A stretch of DNA of 64,000 nucleotides from Candidatus Nitrospira nitrificans (GCF_001458775.1 NZ_CZPZ01000004.1:62001-126000), one strand, 5' to 3'; positions 1 through 50,916 are shown, counted from the first letter of the stretch. The notes: generated from the sequence alone by a model not told the origin. Numbers and translations are program-made.

Positions 1-560
1 TTCGCGACCCCTTCGTGAATCTCGACTTGTGTCGGGCCGCTGCCACGGAGAAATCTCCGTTCGAGAGGCAACCCTTCGAGTTGCCGACTCTTGGCCTCGT
101 TCCGCAGGTACACACTCGTCAGATTCAATTCTTTCATCAGAATGTCGGCTAAGAGTTCTTTCCGGCTATCCATGCCGAACGATAAGCACTGCATGACCAG
201 CAGTTGATCGTACCGATCCACGATCAACCCCGGTAGTCGATCGCCTTCTGCATAAATCAGCCGATAGGCATTGGACTGCGCGACCACTCGCTGCCGGAGG
301 CGGATCGCCTGCTGAATTCTTCCCCGCCAGAACGTCTCGTCGATGGATTCATCCTCGAATGTCAGGAGCCGGATGCGAATTTTTGACGCAGGATTATAGA
401 GACCACGTCCGTAGAATTGTCCGTCGGGGGTCAGGACATCGACCAAATCCCCGGCTGCGGCTTGACCGGTGACCGGCCCGACATGACCGGCAAAGAGCCA
501 GAGAGGCCGTCCTTCCGGGGCGCGGAGCGACGTAAGGCGGACCTGGGCCATCGTTGTCAT
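1..560 (-). CDS. Class I SAM-dependent 23S rRNA methyltransferase, RlmI-like (N-terminal part)
   Basis: Reading the minus strand from 560 gives an open frame to the window edge, so only the first ~186 residues are present. It begins MTTMAQVRL and has a PUA-like N-terminal region (LWLFAGHVGPV, then GDLVDVLTPDGQFYGRGLYNP). Next comes the conserved RLIYAEGDRLPGLIVDRYD stretch that precedes the Rossmann methyltransferase domain in RlmI/YccW-type enzymes, which methylate a cytosine C5 of 23S rRNA. The catalytic domain lies beyond the edge. GGAG stands 8 nt upstream of the chosen ATG; a second in-frame ATG at 551 is possible. The gene is divergent from the decarboxylase gene at 723. Family assignment is firm; the exact target nucleotide is not. 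Confidence 0.85.
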   Translation of the reverse strand, partial: MTTMAQVRLTSLRAPEGRPLWLFAGHVGPVTGQAAAGDLVDVLTPDGQFYGRGLYNPASKIRIRLLTFEDESIDETFWRGRIQQAIRLRQRVVAQSNAYRLIYAEGDRLPGLIVDRYDQLLVMQCLSFGMDSRKELLADILMKELNLTSVYLRNEAKSRQLEGLPLERRFLRGSGPTQVEIHEGVA

Positions 561-43046: not shown

Positions 43047-43165
43047 GTTTCCCGCCAGCGTCTGCCGATCATTTGACCTGGTCGCGTTGTGCAACCTCTC
43101 TCTTCGCTTCTAGATATCGGCGGCACGGCAGAGCACCATCGACATCGCCACTTTTTGAGGATCCC

Positions 43166-44158
43166 ATGAACTATTTGACCTTGGCTGACAAAGCCCTCAA
43201 TGACGAACCCCTGACGAGAGACGAGTGCCGTTCCGTGTTGAATGCGCCGGATGATGAGCTGCTTGCGCTGTTGCACGCAGCTTTCCAAGTCCGATCCAAA
43301 TATTTCAGCCGTACCGTCCGGCTGCAGATGTTGCAGAATGCCAAGAGCGGAGCCTGCCAGGAAGACTGTCATTACTGTTCGCAGTCCTCCATCTCGACCG
43401 CCCCGATCGAGCGGTATAACCTGCTTCCGCAGAAGCAGATGATGGAGGGCGCACGGCAAGCCGCCGCCTCCAAAGCTCAGCGCTATTGCATCGTCATCAG
43501 CGGGCGCAGCCCCTTGGATCGGGAAATCGACGAAATTGCCGGAGCGGTCCGCTCGATCAAACAGGAAGTTCCGATTCAGATCTGCTGCTCACTCGGCCTG
43601 ATGAGTGAATCTCAAGCCAAGCGCCTCAAAGCCGCCGGCGTCGATCGTGTGAACCACAATTTGAACACCAGCGAAGCCTTCCACGCATCGATCTGCACGA
43701 CCCACACCTTCCAAGACCGGCTGGCGACGATCAAGAACGCGCGCGCGGCGGGTTTGGAAATCTGCTCCGGCGGCATTGTCGGCATGGGCGAAACCGACGA
43801 AGACCTCGTCGAACTGGCGACGGCATTGCGTGATGTGAAGCCGGATTCCATTCCCTTGAACATGCTCACCCCGGTTGCTGGCACACCGTTAGAACAGGCC
43901 GACAACCTCACGCCGCAGCGTTGCTTAAAAGTGCTCTGCCTCTTCCGGTTCCTCCATCCTCGTACAGAAATTCGCATCGCCGGCGGGCGGGAACATAATC
44001 TGCGCAGCTTACAACCCCTTGCCCTCTATCCAGCCGACTCCGTCTTTGTGAACGGGTACCTCACGACTCCAGGCGCACCAGCTCCTGAAGTCTGGGGCAT
44101 GATCAAAGACTTGGGCTTCACCATCGAAGTGGATTATCAGCAACCAGTCGCTGGCTGA
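43166..44158 (+). CDS. bioB: Biotin synthase
   Basis: 330 residues from ATG 43166, with GAGG 6 nt upstream; the longer open frame from 43073 lacks similarity. The radical-SAM cluster motif is SGACQEDCHYCSQSS (CxxxCxxC). The [2Fe-2S] ligand cysteines and Arg fit the CSLG, NHNLNTS and EIRIAGGRE segments. It inserts sulfur into dethiobiotin. Other bio genes are not adjacent. It is the last clear core gene before the accessory island. Confidence 0.95.
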   Translation: MNYLTLADKALNDEPLTRDECRSVLNAPDDELLALLHAAFQVRSKYFSRTVRLQMLQNAKSGACQEDCHYCSQSSISTAPIERYNLLPQKQMMEGARQAAASKAQRYCIVISGRSPLDREIDEIAGAVRSIKQEVPIQICCSLGLMSESQAKRLKAAGVDRVNHNLNTSEAFHASICTTHTFQDRLATIKNARAAGLEICSGGIVGMGETDEDLVELATALRDVKPDSIPLNMLTPVAGTPLEQADNLTPQRCLKVLCLFRFLHPRTEIRIAGGREHNLRSLQPLALYPADSVFVNGYLTTPGAPAPEVWGMIKDLGFTIEVDYQQPVAG

Positions 44159-44262: not shown

Positions 44263-44544
44263 TTGAGTCGCATCGTTTTCCGCATCCATGCCATCAAGCG
44301 TATGTTCCAACGACGGATTTCTGAGGAGAACGTCAAGCAGGTCGTGGCAGCCGGAGAAATCATCGAGAGCTATCCCAAGGACACTCCGTATCCCAGCAAA
44401 TTATTGCTGGGCTGGCAAGGAAGTCGCCCATTGCACGTCGTCGCAGCAGATAATGTGGAGAGCGATGAAACGATTGTCATCACGGCATATGAACCCGATC
44501 CTCAAGAATGGGAAACCGGGTTTGCACGGAGGAAACCCCAATGA
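44263..44544 (+). CDS. DUF4258-type putative toxin
   Basis: 93 residues from TTG 44263, with GGAG 8 nt upstream. The pattern IVFRIHAIKRMFQRRISEENVKQVVAAGEIIESYPKDTPYPSKLLLGWQGSRPLHVVAADN matches DUF4258 proteins, which share a RelE/MqsR-like small fold and usually sit beside YgiT-type zinc-finger antitoxins. That partner follows here with a 4-nt overlap. Ribonuclease activity is inferred, not shown. Confidence 0.7.
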   Translation: MSRIVFRIHAIKRMFQRRISEENVKQVVAAGEIIESYPKDTPYPSKLLLGWQGSRPLHVVAADNVESDETIVITAYEPDPQEWETGFARRKPQ

Positions 44545-44768
44545 AATGCGTCATCTGCAAAAACGGTGAAACCAAACCAGGGAGAGCAACGGTTACGCTA
44601 GAACGCCAGGAAACGACACTCGTGATAAAGAACGTCCCAGCAGAGGTGTGTGCGAATTGTGGAGAAGAGTACGTGGACGAGAAGGCGGCATCGCGGTTAT
44701 TGAAAACCGCAGAAGAGGTCGCCCAAAGAGGTGTTCAGGTGGATGTTCGATCGTACGAAGCGGCATGA
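44541..44768 (+). CDS. YgiT/MqsA-type zinc-finger antitoxin
   Basis: 75 residues from ATG 44541, which overlaps the toxin stop (ATGA). Two CxxC pairs, MKCVICKNGET and EVCANCGEEYV, form the zinc finger seen in YgiT/MqsA N-termini. A short helix (AASRLLKTAEEVAQRG) follows. The C-terminal HTH domain of full MqsA is missing, so it probably binds the toxin but not DNA by itself. Confidence 0.75.
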   Translation: MKCVICKNGETKPGRATVTLERQETTLVIKNVPAEVCANCGEEYVDEKAASRLLKTAEEVAQRGVQVDVRSYEAA

Positions 44769-44930: not shown

Positions 44931-45087
44931 ATGAAAAAAGCCGAGAGACAGAGAACATCCGATTTGTACAGAGGCGGTCGGACGCGCACTCCGCCGCGCC
45001 GCCAAGGCGGCTCGAAAAACCGCCAAGATGTATGGCACGCCGATCTACGTATGGGAAAACGGCAAGGTGGTGGCCAAGAAACCCTGA
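44931..45087 (+). pseudogene. Small gene frameshifted in an A6 run
   Basis: ATG 44931 has GGAGAG upstream. The first frame (MKKAERQRTSDLYRGG) runs on without looking natural. One frame over, from the A6 tract onward, the DNA encodes KPRDREHPICTEAVGRALRR, then AAKAARKTAKMYGTPIYVWENGKVVAKKP and a stop at 45087. Removing one A gives a clean 51-residue protein. The C-terminal TPIYVWENGKVV pattern resembles small proteins found beside toxins. It could be a pseudogene, a slippage-dependent gene or a sequencing error. Confidence 0.55.
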
Positions 45088-45200
45088 GATCTCCAAGCCG
45101 CATACCAGATCTTCTTCGCGCCTTTGAGAGCTTATATGAATCCATGCCCGTGCAAGCCTCAATCTCATCTATATAGTCCTCGAGTGCTACTCCAAGAAAG

Positions 45201-45229
45201 TTGACACAGTTAGCCCCAAGAAGTAGCCT
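45201..45229 (+). promoter_or_regulatory. Possible promoter of the ParB-nuclease-methylase cassette
   Basis: TTGACA at 45201-45206 is followed after 17 nt by TAGCCT (45224-45229), a weak -10. It lies in the 243-nt non-coding stretch upstream of the ParB-like gene, in which nothing else was recognised. Confidence 0.3.
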
Positions 45230-45330
45230 AGCGCGATATTGTTAGCGGTTTTTAACTCCTGTACTAGAGCTTTGCTTGTCTTGTGGCACATGCCATGCTA
45301 GCGTTCGATCGGAGGGAGGGTCTTAAGCCC

Positions 45331-46428
45331 ATGGCGGTGAAATCCAACGTGCAAGATGTTCAAGATATTAATGTGCCGTTGAAAGATCTGCAGTTTGATA
45401 GTGAGAACCCTCGATTTACAGATCAAACTTTTCAGAACGATGAAGACCTTATTCGATATCTCTATGATGAGATGGACGTGGCCGAAATAATTCAATCGAT
45501 TCTCTCAAGTGGTTACCTCAATTATGAGCCACTAATAGTTTTGAAAGAGGGAACCTCATACACGGTGCTAGAGGGAAACCGTCGTCTGGCTGCTCTACGT
45601 ATACTGGCTAACAAAGAGTTGAGGAACAAGCTTGGGATTCAGCTATCTAGCGAACCTACGGCTAAAGCACTTCCAGGAGAAATAAAAGTTCGCTGTGTCG
45701 ATGCAAGGAAGGATGCACGGGCCTACATCGGATTCAAGCATATCAATGGCCCAATGAAATGGGATGCGCTTGCTAAGGCAAAGTATGCAGCCCGATGGTT
45801 TGAAGAAGGGGCAGATATTGCGACTATTAGTAAGACTCTTGGTGACAACCATAACACCGTCAGGCGATTGGTAAATGGCTGGCTTGCTTTAGAGCAAGCA
45901 AAAGCCTCGGGGTTCGATATCGAAGACATATCTAGGAAAAGGCTAGCGTTCTCTCACCTCTACACGGCCCTTACTAGAAATGGCTATCGGGATTTTATTG
46001 GATTAGGAGATGAGGATCTTTCGTCACCCCCCAAGAAGAATCCGATCCCTGCTACGAAGACGAAGGACTTCCTTGCTGTCATGTCATGGCTATACGGGCA
46101 GGAGAAGCAGAAGCAGCCTGCGCTAATAAGATCCCAAAATCCCGATCTAAACAAGTTGAACCAGGTACTTTTACATCCAGAAGCAAAGAAACTCTTAGTT
46201 GCTGAACGCAACCTAGATTCTGCATTCGAAAGAGTCGAGCCTGCCAGTAAACGCTTTGAGGATGCCTTACTCAAGGCAAGTCGCCAATGTGAAGATGCCA
46301 ATAAGTTGTCAGGTCACTACGATGGTGATGGTACTCTTCTCCAAGTAGCAGATGGGATGCAAAAGACTGTGAAGAGTCTTGTTCTTGTGATGAAGGACAA
46401 AGTCAGGGCTGAGACCGATGGGGAATAG
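45331..46428 (+). CDS. ParB/Srx-like N-terminal domain protein with HTH
   Basis: 365 residues from ATG 45331, with GGAGGGAGGG ~10 nt upstream; the frame is open to a GTG at 45283 without a ribosome site. The N-terminal ParB-like domain has LQFDSENPRF (box I) and PLIVLKEGTSYTVLEGNRRLAALRIL (box II, EGNRR at 81-85). A predicted helix-turn-helix lies at ~162-190 (IATISKTLGDNHNTVRRLVNGWL). The C-terminal half is helical without a known domain. No ParA is nearby, so chromosome partitioning is unlikely. The stop is 2 nt from the next gene. Codon use is visibly AT-richer than the core genes. Confidence 0.75.
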   Translation: MAVKSNVQDVQDINVPLKDLQFDSENPRFTDQTFQNDEDLIRYLYDEMDVAEIIQSILSSGYLNYEPLIVLKEGTSYTVLEGNRRLAALRILANKELRNKLGIQLSSEPTAKALPGEIKVRCVDARKDARAYIGFKHINGPMKWDALAKAKYAARWFEEGADIATISKTLGDNHNTVRRLVNGWLALEQAKASGFDIEDISRKRLAFSHLYTALTRNGYRDFIGLGDEDLSSPPKKNPIPATKTKDFLAVMSWLYGQEKQKQPALIRSQNPDLNKLNQVLLHPEAKKLLVAERNLDSAFERVEPASKRFEDALLKASRQCEDANKLSGHYDGDGTLLQVADGMQKTVKSLVLVMKDKVRAETDGE

Positions 46429-46430
46429 TT

Positions 46431-47492
46431 TTGCCTGTACGGGTTGTTGAGCCAATTCCAAAGAATTCCACTCGTAGCGCTCTTGCCGATTGGCTTGAGC
46501 TCAGTGCGCTCTCATCTGACAGAAAGCAAGTGAGTGAAGCTGATCTAATTGGGCTACACGAGCTATATGGCGGAGACAGTGTTGCCACATTACGGTCTGA
46601 ACCAGAGACCGGAGAAGTTCTTGATGAATCAATTCTTGAGACGATGCAGGAACAATCCCTACAGGCTGTTGTGGAAGAAATCATGTACCGGGCAGAAGTT
46701 CTACAGGGGTGCTACCCTTTCAAGGTAAAGCCGCGGGGCATTCTCCTTGCTGAGTCAACGGGGGAAGAGCAGTTAACTATCGGAGAATGGGTATACCTAT
46801 TCTGTCTGTTATCCTCGGCTATTAGAGAAGGGGGTCTGCAAACAACGGATGAGAGTATAGAAACTCGCATAGCTTCTCTGTTTCAAGTATGTGCGTGTCT
46901 GGCTGCTGTTGGGTATCTTTCTGGAACTGCATCTTCTTTTGGGTTTCCTCGAGCCCAAGGGAATGCCTTCCTACCCGCCCTACAACTTGCCTACAAGGAG
47001 TTTGGTGAGGGCACTGTCAGAAGTGATGACAATGTTCCTCCTGGATTCCCATCTGATCTTAAAGATGGAGGAATTGATGTAATTGCATGGCGGGATTTTC
47101 CTGATAAGTTGCCAGGTAAACTTTATCTGCTGGGGCAATGCGCATCTGGGAAGAATTGGAAATCCAAACCTGTACGGACATACATAAAGTCCTTTCACGG
47201 GAATTGGTTCACTGGGACCCCTGCTAGCGAACCGATCGAGGCACTTTTTATCCCATTCACATTCCATCATGAGTTACAAGATAGTGATGAGGAGGATTTT
47301 TCTACCCGTCGCCGAAATGCCTTTCATTATGAGACGAGGACATTTGGTGTCATTCACGATCGATTTCGCCTTGCATACTTTGCTGGTCTAGGAAGCTCTT
47401 TGCCTCCGCAGAACCAGGGTGCTTTCAATGAGAACATTGACAAAGTGAAGGCGTGGGTAGGGGACGTGCTTGCCTTAATGCGCGGCAACTAG
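46431..47492 (+). CDS. Putative PD-(D/E)XK-type nuclease of the ParB-methylase cassette
   Basis: 353 residues from TTG 46431, with GGGGA 7 nt upstream and 2 nt after the ParB-like stop. The N-terminal half is helical (VYLFCLLSSAIREGG, FQVCACLAAVGYLSG). Then GFPRAQGNAFLPAL leads to GGIDVIAWRDFPD (Asp216) and LYLLGQCASGKNWKSK (Gln236, Lys241). An Asp in a beta-hairpin, followed ~20 residues later by (E/Q)xx..K on the next strand, is the arrangement of restriction-endonuclease-like folds. The canonical Lys two after Gln is Ala here, so Lys241 would have to serve. The nuclease call is inferred from motif and context. Confidence 0.55.
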   Translation: MPVRVVEPIPKNSTRSALADWLELSALSSDRKQVSEADLIGLHELYGGDSVATLRSEPETGEVLDESILETMQEQSLQAVVEEIMYRAEVLQGCYPFKVKPRGILLAESTGEEQLTIGEWVYLFCLLSSAIREGGLQTTDESIETRIASLFQVCACLAAVGYLSGTASSFGFPRAQGNAFLPALQLAYKEFGEGTVRSDDNVPPGFPSDLKDGGIDVIAWRDFPDKLPGKLYLLGQCASGKNWKSKPVRTYIKSFHGNWFTGTPASEPIEALFIPFTFHHELQDSDEEDFSTRRRNAFHYETRTFGVIHDRFRLAYFAGLGSSLPPQNQGAFNENIDKVKAWVGDVLALMRGN

Positions 47493-47543
47493 TGCGATAG
47501 GCATTGAAAGGTTCAGGACTTTCGACACAAGCACGAAGATAGT

Positions 47544-48422
47544 ATGAAACAAGATGCCTATGTTGGGAGAAACTCTCGTCGATCTGGGCAAATGATTAGG
47601 CATCTCAGTCCTTTCCGTTATCCAGGCGGGAAAAGCTGGCTCGCGGATCATGTTCGTCTATGGTTAAAAGCTCAGACTAATCGACCTAAAATATTGGTCG
47701 AACCATTTGGGGGAGGAGCGGGTACATCATTAATTGCCGTAAATGAGGGGCTAGTTGAAGAGGCTGTGTTCGCTGAGATCGATCCAGATGTTGCTGCTAC
47801 TTGGGAAACAGTATTGAACGGGCATGCAAGATGGCTAGCCAACACAATTAGCGCATTTCGAGTTACTAGAAAAAATGTTGAACGCGCTTTGAGCGAGATT
47901 CCCCAAAGTACCCATGAACGAGCTTTTCAATGCATACTTAGGAATCGGACGGCTCGTGGTGGTGTTTTGTCTGATGGTGCCGGCCTAATTCGCCGTGGTG
48001 AAAATGATAGAGGCCTGAAGTCTCGATGGTATCCTGAGACTCTTTCGAAGCGAATAGAGGTTATCTCGGGTTTGAAGAGTCAGTTGTGCTTTCTTCAAAG
48101 AGATGGCTTCAATGTTATTAATGAGTATTTGGATCGACCCGATACGGTGTTCTTTGTTGATCCCCCATATACTCAGGCCGCACGTCGTCTCTATCGATAT
48201 TGGGACATAGATCACGAAAACCTGTTTAGGTTATTGGGCGATGCTAAGGGTAAAGTGCTTATGACCTATGACGATACAAAGGAGGTTCGAGTGTGGGCTA
48301 GTCGTTGTAAGTTTAAGGTGCGAAGAATATCTATGCATACCACGCACCATCAGTATAAACGCGAATTGATGATTTCTCGTGATTTCAATTGGTTAAAAAT
48401 GAACCCCAGGCATAAAATCTGA
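47544..48422 (+). CDS. D12-class (Dam-like) N6-adenine DNA methyltransferase
   Basis: 292 residues; an in-frame ATG at 47592 (MIRHLSPFRYPGGK) is an alternative start. Motif X is FRYPGGKSWLADHV, motif I is LVEPFGGGAGTSL, and catalytic motif IV is FFVDPPYTQAARRLY. NRTARGG and KSRWYPETL fit target-recognition segments of this class. It should methylate adenine N6 in a specific sequence. The specificity is not predictable by eye. It is third in the AT-rich cassette, 51 nt after the putative nuclease gene, consistent with protection of self DNA. Confidence 0.9.
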   Translation: MKQDAYVGRNSRRSGQMIRHLSPFRYPGGKSWLADHVRLWLKAQTNRPKILVEPFGGGAGTSLIAVNEGLVEEAVFAEIDPDVAATWETVLNGHARWLANTISAFRVTRKNVERALSEIPQSTHERAFQCILRNRTARGGVLSDGAGLIRRGENDRGLKSRWYPETLSKRIEVISGLKSQLCFLQRDGFNVINEYLDRPDTVFFVDPPYTQAARRLYRYWDIDHENLFRLLGDAKGKVLMTYDDTKEVRVWASRCKFKVRRISMHTTHHQYKRELMISRDFNWLKMNPRHKI

Positions 48423-48840
48423 CACCCGCAGCTCACAACTTTACCTGAGAAGCTTTAAGAGATCGGACCCCGTTTCTATCATCCTGCTCAGTGATTGCAA
48501 GGCTCAAGTCTCTGCATATAATCAACTCTCACGCTGCCTTGTTGGGATGGCAGATGCACCAAGCAAGAAGTCGATCCACATCCCAGACGCTATTCTCTAG
48601 TAATGCTAATGAGCCGCACAAACCGATGAAATTGGCGAGCGCAGCTCGTAGCCTGCCGATGGCTGGGGAAGTAGTGCCGCTCGATGTACCCTGAATGGCA
48701 GACCTGTAGTGGTGTTGGTAGACTTGACAACTGCATCGAGATCACCAAAACTCGCCTGGCGTCCTAGAGAATGAGCTGCTTGGATACACTGATCGGTCTA
48801 ATCAATCGCGTTAGGTAGACAGCCGAAAAGAGGATACGCC

Positions 48841-49152
48841 ATGAAACAATGTCACCAACTTCTCGCAATCGCCTATATGGTTGCCAATGTCGTATCCATA
48901 ACAAATGCCTATGCTGGTCCTGAAATTACCGGCATTCCAAGGGGACCGGTTGACAAAGGCAAGGTCGCAATGGCAGAAAAGGCGAAATTATCTGCACAAT
49001 TATGCGGCCCGGGATGGACCCTGTCCGACGATCGTGAACATACCCAAGCGAGTTTCTTGTGCGTACCTGTAAAGCCAAAAGTACAATGCCCGCCGGATGC
49101 GCAGGTACTTGAAACGGACTATTCAATCGGCTGCGTCCCTAGGCCAAAGTAG
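48841..49152 (+). CDS. Small secreted cysteine-containing protein
   Basis: 103 residues. A signal peptide (~1-25, LLAIAYMVANVVSITNAYAG) precedes a short mature chain with four cysteines (AQLCGPGW, FLCVPV, VQCPPD, IGCVPR), able to form two disulfides. AAGAGGA precedes the ATG. No family is recognised. It stands alone at the right side of the accessory island. The 418 nt between the methylase and this gene show nothing I can support. Confidence 0.55.
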   Translation: MKQCHQLLAIAYMVANVVSITNAYAGPEITGIPRGPVDKGKVAMAEKAKLSAQLCGPGWTLSDDREHTQASFLCVPVKPKVQCPPDAQVLETDYSIGCVPRPK

Positions 49153-49220
49153 ATAAGCACCTGTTCAATGGATGATGCTGGTGGCATCAAGGCCGGGCAC
49201 GCGAGCCAAGGGAAGCGATA

Positions 49221-49881: not shown

Positions 49882-50916
49882 GTGATTCTGGTCACCGGTG
49901 GCGCCGGATATATTGGGTCTCACACCTGTGTCGAACTGCTCCAGGCGGGACACGACATTACCGCCTTCGATAATTTCTGCAACAGCCATCCTGAATCGCT
50001 GGAACGTGTACGACGTCTTACAGGGAAACAGCTCCGCCTCATCCGCGGCGACATCCGCGACCGAGCGGCGCTGGTGACGGCGCTGCGAGAAAGCGGGGCG
50101 CAATCGGTGATTCACTTTGCCGGCCTGAAGGCGGTCGGCCAGTCGGTCCAGCAACCACTGTCCTACTACGACAACAATGTCGTCGGCTCTTTGCGTTTAT
50201 TGGAGGCAATGGCAGTCTGTGGGGTCAAGACGCTGGTATTCAGTTCCTCCGCCACGGTGTACGGCGATCCGCAGCGGCTGCCGCTGACAGAAGATCATCC
50301 GCTCTCCGCCACCAATCCCTATGGACAAACGAAACTGACGGTGGAACACATGCTGCGGGATCTGCAGCGAAGCGATACTTCGTGGCGCATCGGGATTCTC
50401 CGCTACTTTAATCCGGTGGGCGCGCATGCGAGCGGGTTGATCGGCGAAGATCCACAGGGTACGCCGAACAACCTCATGCCCTTCGTAGCGCAGGTGGCGG
50501 TCGGCCTCCGCCCGCATCTGAACGTGTTCGGGAATGATTACACAACTCCGGACGGCACGGGTGTGCGCGACTATATCCATGTCGTGGATCTGGCCAGAGG
50601 ACATCTCAAAGCCCTGGACGCGCTCGGACAATCCACGCGCCAGGCGGAATGTCTCACGGTCAATCTTGGAACCGGAACCGGTTACAGCGTACTGGAGATC
50701 GTGCGGGCCTTCGAGCAGGCCAGCGGCCGACGGGTGGCGTACAAAGCTGCGCCTCGTCGGCCCGGCGACGTCGCAGCCTGTTACGCCGATCCCGGCAAGG
50801 CGGCTGCCCTCCTCGGCTGGCGGACTGAGCGAGGCCTCGCCGACATGTGCGCCGACACGTGGCGATGGCAGCGCCTCAATCCTCACGGGTACAATCTTCC
50901 TCACCCAGCGGCCTAA
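49882..50916 (+). CDS. galE: UDP-glucose 4-epimerase
   Basis: 344 residues from GTG 49882, with GGAG 7 nt upstream. Extended-SDR motifs are complete: NAD site VTGGAGYIGSHTCVELL, SSSATVYGDP carrying the catalytic Ser, YGQTK (YxxxK), and RYFNPVGAH, plus DYIHVVDLARGH. It interconverts UDP-glucose and UDP-galactose for surface polysaccharides. The first core gene after the accessory island. Confidence 0.95.
   Translation: MILVTGGAGYIGSHTCVELLQAGHDITAFDNFCNSHPESLERVRRLTGKQLRLIRGDIRDRAALVTALRESGAQSVIHFAGLKAVGQSVQQPLSYYDNNVVGSLRLLEAMAVCGVKTLVFSSSATVYGDPQRLPLTEDHPLSATNPYGQTKLTVEHMLRDLQRSDTSWRIGILRYFNPVGAHASGLIGEDPQGTPNNLMPFVAQVAVGLRPHLNVFGNDYTTPDGTGVRDYIHVVDLARGHLKALDALGQSTRQAECLTVNLGTGTGYSVLEIVRAFEQASGRRVAYKAAPRRPGDVAACYADPGKAAALLGWRTERGLADMCADTWRWQRLNPHGYNLPHPAA

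Follow-up and report, generated by a model that had tools for sequence, protein, structure and literature searches.

The closest characterised relative of the locus analysed here is PD-lambda-5 (PMC9519451), a prophage-borne system composed of a methylase, PD-lambda-5_B, and PD-lambda-5_A, a protein of about 450-500 aa with a ParB-like N-terminus and a distinct C-terminal half. ParB-superfamily domains are also associated with nucleases in the defence systems GmrSD and SspE, and a 2025 survey of ParB folds (PMC12704722) lists, in the passages searched, fusions to methyltransferases and to HNH nucleases. ParB, Noc and KorB are CTP-dependent clamps with an N-domain and a helix-turn-helix (HTH) domain; in KorB the glutamate of the phosphate-binding motif is absent (GARR) and CTP is still hydrolysed, R117 being required for CTP binding (PMC11790492). 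Type II restriction-modification (R-M) systems combine a nuclease and a DNA methyltransferase, and MspJI/Mrr-type enzymes carry a D-x(n)-Q nuclease site.

We analysed a window of 64,000 nucleotides from Candidatus Nitrospira nitrificans (GCF_001458775.1, NZ_CZPZ01000004.1:62001-126000; source assembly, a 4.1-Mb genome), which contains three consecutive genes encoding a ParB-like protein (P0001), a predicted PD-(D/E)XK nuclease (P0002) and a DNA methyltransferase (P0003). The trio probably serves defence (or selfish exclusion) in the manner of a restriction-modification system, its restriction arm consisting of two proteins and its methylase being exchangeable. The reading is based on the folds of the proteins, their intact motifs, the fixed pairing of the ParB-like and nuclease genes, the exchangeable adjacent methyltransferase, and a location in mobile elements or defence hotspots. 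The initial annotation, which had proposed a restriction-modification-like or modification-dependent system, recognised no named system in the trio; likewise, no described system matched across all three genes in PADLOC or the literature. The trio is not described in the searched passages of the 2025 survey (PMC12704722), and no paper on it was found in the open-access literature.

The three open reading frames lie on one strand (+) with spacings of 2 and 51 nt, and the start codon of P0002 is TTG, with relatives beginning at the equivalent position (Table 1). The G+C content is 46-48% over 45-49 kb, compared with mostly 55-62% in the flanking core, which agrees with the AT-richer DNA reported initially, and the reported location between bioB and galE was corroborated by reading both flanking genes. 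Scans for promoters, terminators and repeats in the locus gave results at chance level only. In two genomes of the same genus (G027 and G149), bioB is followed by a short remnant, which matches the window at approximately 44.9-45.04 kb, and then by the sequence from 49.17 kb onward, with collinear flanks. In a third genome of the genus (G199) the slot of the trio is filled by a 1228-aa TIR-WD40 protein, and in G036 a different gene occupies it. Since the slot is empty or otherwise filled in these relatives, its content varies within the genus, and the approximately 4.1 kb with the trio were acquired by insertion. The protein in the G199 slot (L189 2545-6228) combines a TIR domain with WD40 propellers and an Lcl_C domain, which suggests that accessory or defence genes gather between bioB and galE in this genus, as in a hotspot. 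Furthermore, next to the trio at 44263-44768 the window has a DUF4258 gene and, after it, a gene resembling MqsA-type antitoxins (Pfam, 1e-23 and 7.9e-8). The two make up a putative toxin-antitoxin pair, which is independent of the trio because it is also found in G199.

Table 1. Features of the trio and its surroundings; positions are counted from the first nucleotide of the window.
Feature	Position	Strand	Basis
bioB	43073..44158		ORF reading
DNA missing from the empty sites of G027 and G149 (approximate)	45036..49167		trio and low-G+C flanks
P0001, ParB-clamp-like protein, 365 aa	45331..46428	+	phrog_3694; pLDDT 94.5; KorB Z 10.5
P0001 parts: ParB/Srx N-domain, residues ~11-140; HTH DNA-binding domain, ~141-235; C-terminal part helical			
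P0001 EGNRR (residues 81-85), phosphate-binding motif corresponding to ParB GERR	45571..45585	+	alignment to M. xanthus ParB
P0001 helix-turn-helix, residues ~163-182	45817..45876	+	weak HTH_23 match and model helices
P0002, predicted PD-(D/E)XK nuclease, 353 aa	46431..47492	+	model pLDDT 91.3; phrog_14650
P0002 parts: N-terminal portion winged-helix-like; nuclease core, residues ~115-328			
P0002 D216 codon, predicted catalytic Asp	47076..47078	+	invariant, 111/111
P0002 Q236 codon, predicted catalytic Gln of D-x(n)-Q-x-K type site	47136..47138	+	invariant, 111/111
P0002 K246 codon, predicted relocated catalytic Lys	47166..47168	+	K246 in 94/111
P0003, D12-class N6-adenine DNA methyltransferase, 292 aa	47544..48422	+	MethyltransfD12, 2.2e-7; PD-Lambda-5_B, 1.2e-41
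P0003 DPPY catalytic motif	48159..48170	+	sequence
galE	49882..50916		ORF reading

P0001 matches phrog_3694 over its full length (8.5e-71), a family to which PHROGs assigns no function. No Pfam model reached threshold, and HTH_23 matched residues 153-185 weakly. The AlphaFold model places helices at residues 163-170 and 174-192, and a Foldseek search with it retrieved ParB, Noc and KorB, with 30 chains at E <= 0.001. The best structural alignment, with KorB, covers 196 residues (model residues 11-285) and spans both the N-domain and the HTH domain; ParB and Noc gave Z of 8-9, and SspE was found at rank 49 (Z 4.0). P0001 thus models as a ParB/KorB/Noc-type clamp fold with an HTH domain and not as a ParB domain of the GmrSD/SspE type. 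The comparison with GmrSD and SspE drawn in the initial annotation is not supported: none of the three proteins has a Pfam match to a GmrSD-type (DUF262) domain or to an HNH nuclease, and the partner nuclease is predicted to be PD-(D/E)XK.

The EGNRR sequence, noted initially together with the HTH and the lack of a ParA partner, was found again, and no ParA gene was seen next to the trio within the window. It aligns to the GERR motif of Myxococcus xanthus ParB with the glutamate replaced by asparagine and the two arginines retained; all 85 relatives compared share E81, G82, N83 and R85, and R85 is by motif equivalent to KorB R117. H137, also invariant in the 85 relatives, belongs to a [K/R]H[I/V][N/T]G (KHING-like) motif, which in our reading of the alignment stands about where ParB has ENxQR. 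CTP hydrolysis by P0001 is not assured, because the catalytic glutamate is an asparagine and the ENxQR region is KHING-like; however, KorB hydrolyses CTP without that glutamate, so that by analogy clamp behaviour of P0001 is plausible. P0001 further differs from the known clamps in lacking a ParA partner and in having a nuclease as its partner.

P0002 matches phrog_14650 (1.4e-40), which also has no function assigned in PHROGs. Comparison of its profile with PDB sequences gave MspJI as the sole match, a weak one (E 0.55), with DGGVDF...GQAK aligned to D216...Q236. The tertiary structure was modelled with high confidence and its top structural matches included FokI, BspD6I, MspJI, EcoT38I, the Shedu nuclease domain and Card1 (Z 4.7-6.0). 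These matches are middling (Z about 6, best Foldseek E 3e-3) and such Z values can reflect a common arrangement; nevertheless, the PD-(D/E)XK assignment is upheld, because this superfamily accounts for nearly all of the approximately 20 best structural matches and agrees with the MspJI sequence match. According to the model and the conserved residues, P0002 is a predicted PD-(D/E)XK nuclease with a D...Q...K catalytic constellation, as the initial annotation had supposed for the 353-aa protein.

All 111 nuclease relatives have D20, E23, R87, P96, Y122, D212, D216, Q236 and R311 in common. Of the D...QCASGK pattern recognised initially, D216 and Q236 were thus retained, but K241 is not conserved and the conserved lysine is K246. 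A lysine is present at position 246 in 94 relatives and at position 238 (canonical QxK) in 18, with both in one and neither in none. The exchange maps to a single change on the nuclease tree, so its Fisher value (4e-19) is not independent evidence; the pattern is nevertheless the one expected if the catalytic lysine had moved. P0002 shares with MspJI/Mrr-type enzymes the D-x(n)-Q site and the fold, and differs from them in a winged-helix-like N-terminal part, a separate DNA-binding partner and, in most relatives, the lysine at 246. No modification-reading SRA-like domain was found in P0002, and Pfam, NCBIfam and PADLOC searches over the 111 nuclease members showed no consistent family. Single-sequence scans with P0002 over genome contigs and viral contigs gave no matches.

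P0003 contains the motifs YPGGK, EPFGGGAG and DPPY and matches the Pfam D12 methyltransferase model. It had been described as a clear Dam-type methylase: the D12 class holds (2.2e-7), but the Dam subfamily model scores only 32.6 against a cut-off of 114.85. PADLOC PD-Lambda-5_B matches residues 17-280 of P0003, and the ParB-like N-terminal part of PD-Lambda-5_A is matched by residues 14-155 of P0001 (3e-21). Prophages carry both systems. However, the C-terminal half of PD-lambda-5_A is missing from P0001, the PADLOC models of PD-lambda-5 include no counterpart of P0002, and the constant partner in the trio is a separate PD-(D/E)XK nuclease, with a varying class of methyltransferase. With a methylase match, a match to just the N-terminus of PD-lambda-5_A and no nuclease model, the trio is a relative of PD-lambda-5 and not a member. 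The possibility that the nuclease is fused within PD-lambda-5_A was rejected (hhalign probability 0.2). P0001 residues 47-333 also match positions 58-343 of the 715 of PDC-M38A (2.2e-16), a component of the PADLOC candidate PDC-M38; the remaining approximately 370 positions of this model are unmatched, P0002 matches no PADLOC model, and PDC-M38A is unspecific, since it matches 8 of 14 control genomes.

The relationship with PD-lambda-5, termed a compacted RM+Abi system by its authors (PMC9519451), bears on an abortive-infection or toxin-antitoxin-like mode of action, in which phage replication or a loss of methyl marks, sensed by the ParB-like protein, would turn the nuclease against the host chromosome, with the methyltransferase serving as a licence. 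DNA and nucleotide binding by ParB-type proteins would fit such a sensor. We consider this mode improbable, as P0001 lacks the C-terminal part of PD-lambda-5_A, to which P0002 showed no relationship when profiles were compared, and nothing in the analysis points to cell death.

Scans with the ParB alignment retrieved 160 loci, and reduction of redundancy left 141 pairs. For 169 of 193 ParB-family ORFs the nuclease gene is directly downstream on the same strand, with most gaps between -20 and +13 nt, and the exceptions are mostly loci cut by contig ends or a separate group of about 500-aa PD-lambda-5_A-like proteins. A search of viral contigs starting from the nuclease found the ParB-like gene on 27 of 28, the remaining contig being cut at its start, and among 295 genomes of the phylum of the window the nuclease was present in four, all of them with the pair. 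The ParB-like and nuclease genes are therefore an obligate tandem pair. Pairs were found in twelve named phyla and in that of the window (at least 13 bacterial phyla).

An alternative reading as a partition or plasmid/prophage maintenance ParB, followed by an unrelated gene and a phage anti-restriction methylase, would account for the ParB fold and HTH of P0001 and for relatives annotated as ParB in phages and plasmids, and about a fourth of P2-like phages were reported by Rousset et al. to have a 'putative plasmid partitioning system' (PMC9122126). Nevertheless, it is very improbable: whereas ParABS systems have a ParA partner gene, a ParA-like P-loop (KGGxGKT-type) neighbour was found at just one of the 141 pairs, the obligate partner is a nuclease, and the copy in the window is chromosomal.

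A methyltransferase gene neighbours 123 of the 141 pairs: 59 D12, 34 C5, 27 N4/N6 and three other, with classes checked on representatives. Methyltransferases make up 116 of 239 neighbours within 500 bp versus 14 of 921 at greater distance. Several of the 18 pairs without a methyltransferase are cut loci, and about ten with adequate flanks have no recognised adjacent one. The co-occurrence of the three genes, which the initial annotation had put forward as a check, was thus borne out. Along the nuclease tree the methyltransferase switches class about 14 times, and well-supported branches force at least seven class changes for D12 and for N4/N6; the window copy, with its D12 enzyme, is closest to relatives with N4/N6 enzymes. 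The trio resembles type II R-M systems in combining a nuclease with a DNA methyltransferase, drawn in its family from three classes, and differs in that the nuclease has a ParB-type clamp as its constant partner and that one nuclease family pairs with D12, C5 or N4/N6 methylases. Partial Mantel tests identified no consistent specificity domain tracking the methyltransferase, and the methyltransferase classes disagreed.

These neighbourhoods also weigh on a modification-dependent (type IV-like) activity, by which the ParB-nuclease pair would attack foreign-modified DNA and the methyltransferase would be a separate passenger or regulator. The nearest relative of the nuclease core, MspJI, is a modification-dependent enzyme, one member of the nuclease family matches the PADLOC methyl-directed REase model (1.2e-4), and the approximately ten adequately flanked loci without a recognised methyltransferase would agree with it. 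However, methyltransferases nearly always adjoin the pair, and an own methyltransferase would endanger a modification-dependent nuclease; moreover, MspJI-like catalytic cores are known in other restriction enzymes too. This activity is therefore unlikely. The observations of the initial annotation were confirmed, and its interpretation was partly supported. Strict co-occurrence, the PD-(D/E)XK fold and a conserved but exchangeable methyltransferase give good support to its restriction-modification-like system in which the nuclease is a separate protein; the presence of a cognate methylase gene in the cassette makes its modification-dependent alternative less likely.

In the restriction-modification-like reading that we favour, the methyltransferase would mark host DNA at a site, and the ParB-like protein and the nuclease would form a single restriction arm, which we infer to be blocked by methylation. 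The ParB-like protein would contact DNA through its HTH, probably closing as a nucleotide-dependent clamp that uses CTP or another NTP, and would direct the nuclease by recruiting or activating it on unmarked DNA. Recruitment or licensing of the nuclease by the ParB-like protein, as proposed in the initial annotation, thus stays a hypothesis. More tentatively, the trio may represent a class of restriction in which a ParB-type nucleotide-gated clamp loads at unmethylated sites, slides away from them and brings in or switches on a PD-(D/E)XK nuclease encoded by its own gene, with no ATP-driven translocase, the arm being exchanged among chemically unrelated methylases. A restriction-modification-like role of the family would add a widespread R-M-like architecture that current defence catalogues miss (the nuclease model is absent from PADLOC and NCBIfam, and Pfam recognises the methylase only), would account for a group of prophage ParB genes that stand as orphans, and would carry the ParB clamp fold beyond segregation and gene regulation into DNA restriction. 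The family also lends itself, as a natural experiment, to the question of how methylase partners are exchanged by a restriction arm.

Wphi and 12474III, two phages of E. coli, carry the trio, as does Pseudomonas phage D14A; in Wphi, known from the lysogen E. coli W, the genes are gp98, gp96 and mth. In 12474III it lies between the portal gene Q and the replication gene A, the P2 A-Q hotspot, which carries defence systems (Rousset et al., PMC9122126; Vassallo et al., PMC9519451). Comparison of the P2-like E. coli phage loci (L005 96-3266; L006 3980-7016) showed that the C5 methyltransferases of Wphi and 12474III are 98% identical, while identity is 32% for the ParB-like protein, 25% for the nuclease and 28% for the HTH region. 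The restriction arm has thus been replaced under a constant methylase, and the divergence of the HTH region under a nearly identical methyltransferase does not favour the ParB HTH as the reader of the methylase site. Among 5,426 E. coli genomes, 103 contain one of these two variants and 36 the other. Identification of the trio with the partitioning system of Rousset et al. is unsupported: the two variants account for 139 genomes versus 1,648 with a P2-type portal match, about 8%, an estimate that covers these two E. coli variants and that divergent variants would escape.

In five actinobacterial loci (L021, L022, L027, L028 and L037), a gene for a PD-lambda-5_A-like protein of about 500 aa precedes the pair by approximately 0.7-0.9 kb in the same orientation, and the two may cooperate or share islands. 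The genome of the window also contains a second ParB-like gene, of the PD-lambda-5_A-like kind, close to a contig end (G000:C11:125-1006, L191). Finally, a gut phage contig (L003 272-8675) shows two antiparallel ParB-nuclease pairs together with a C5 methylase and a Z1-domain protein.
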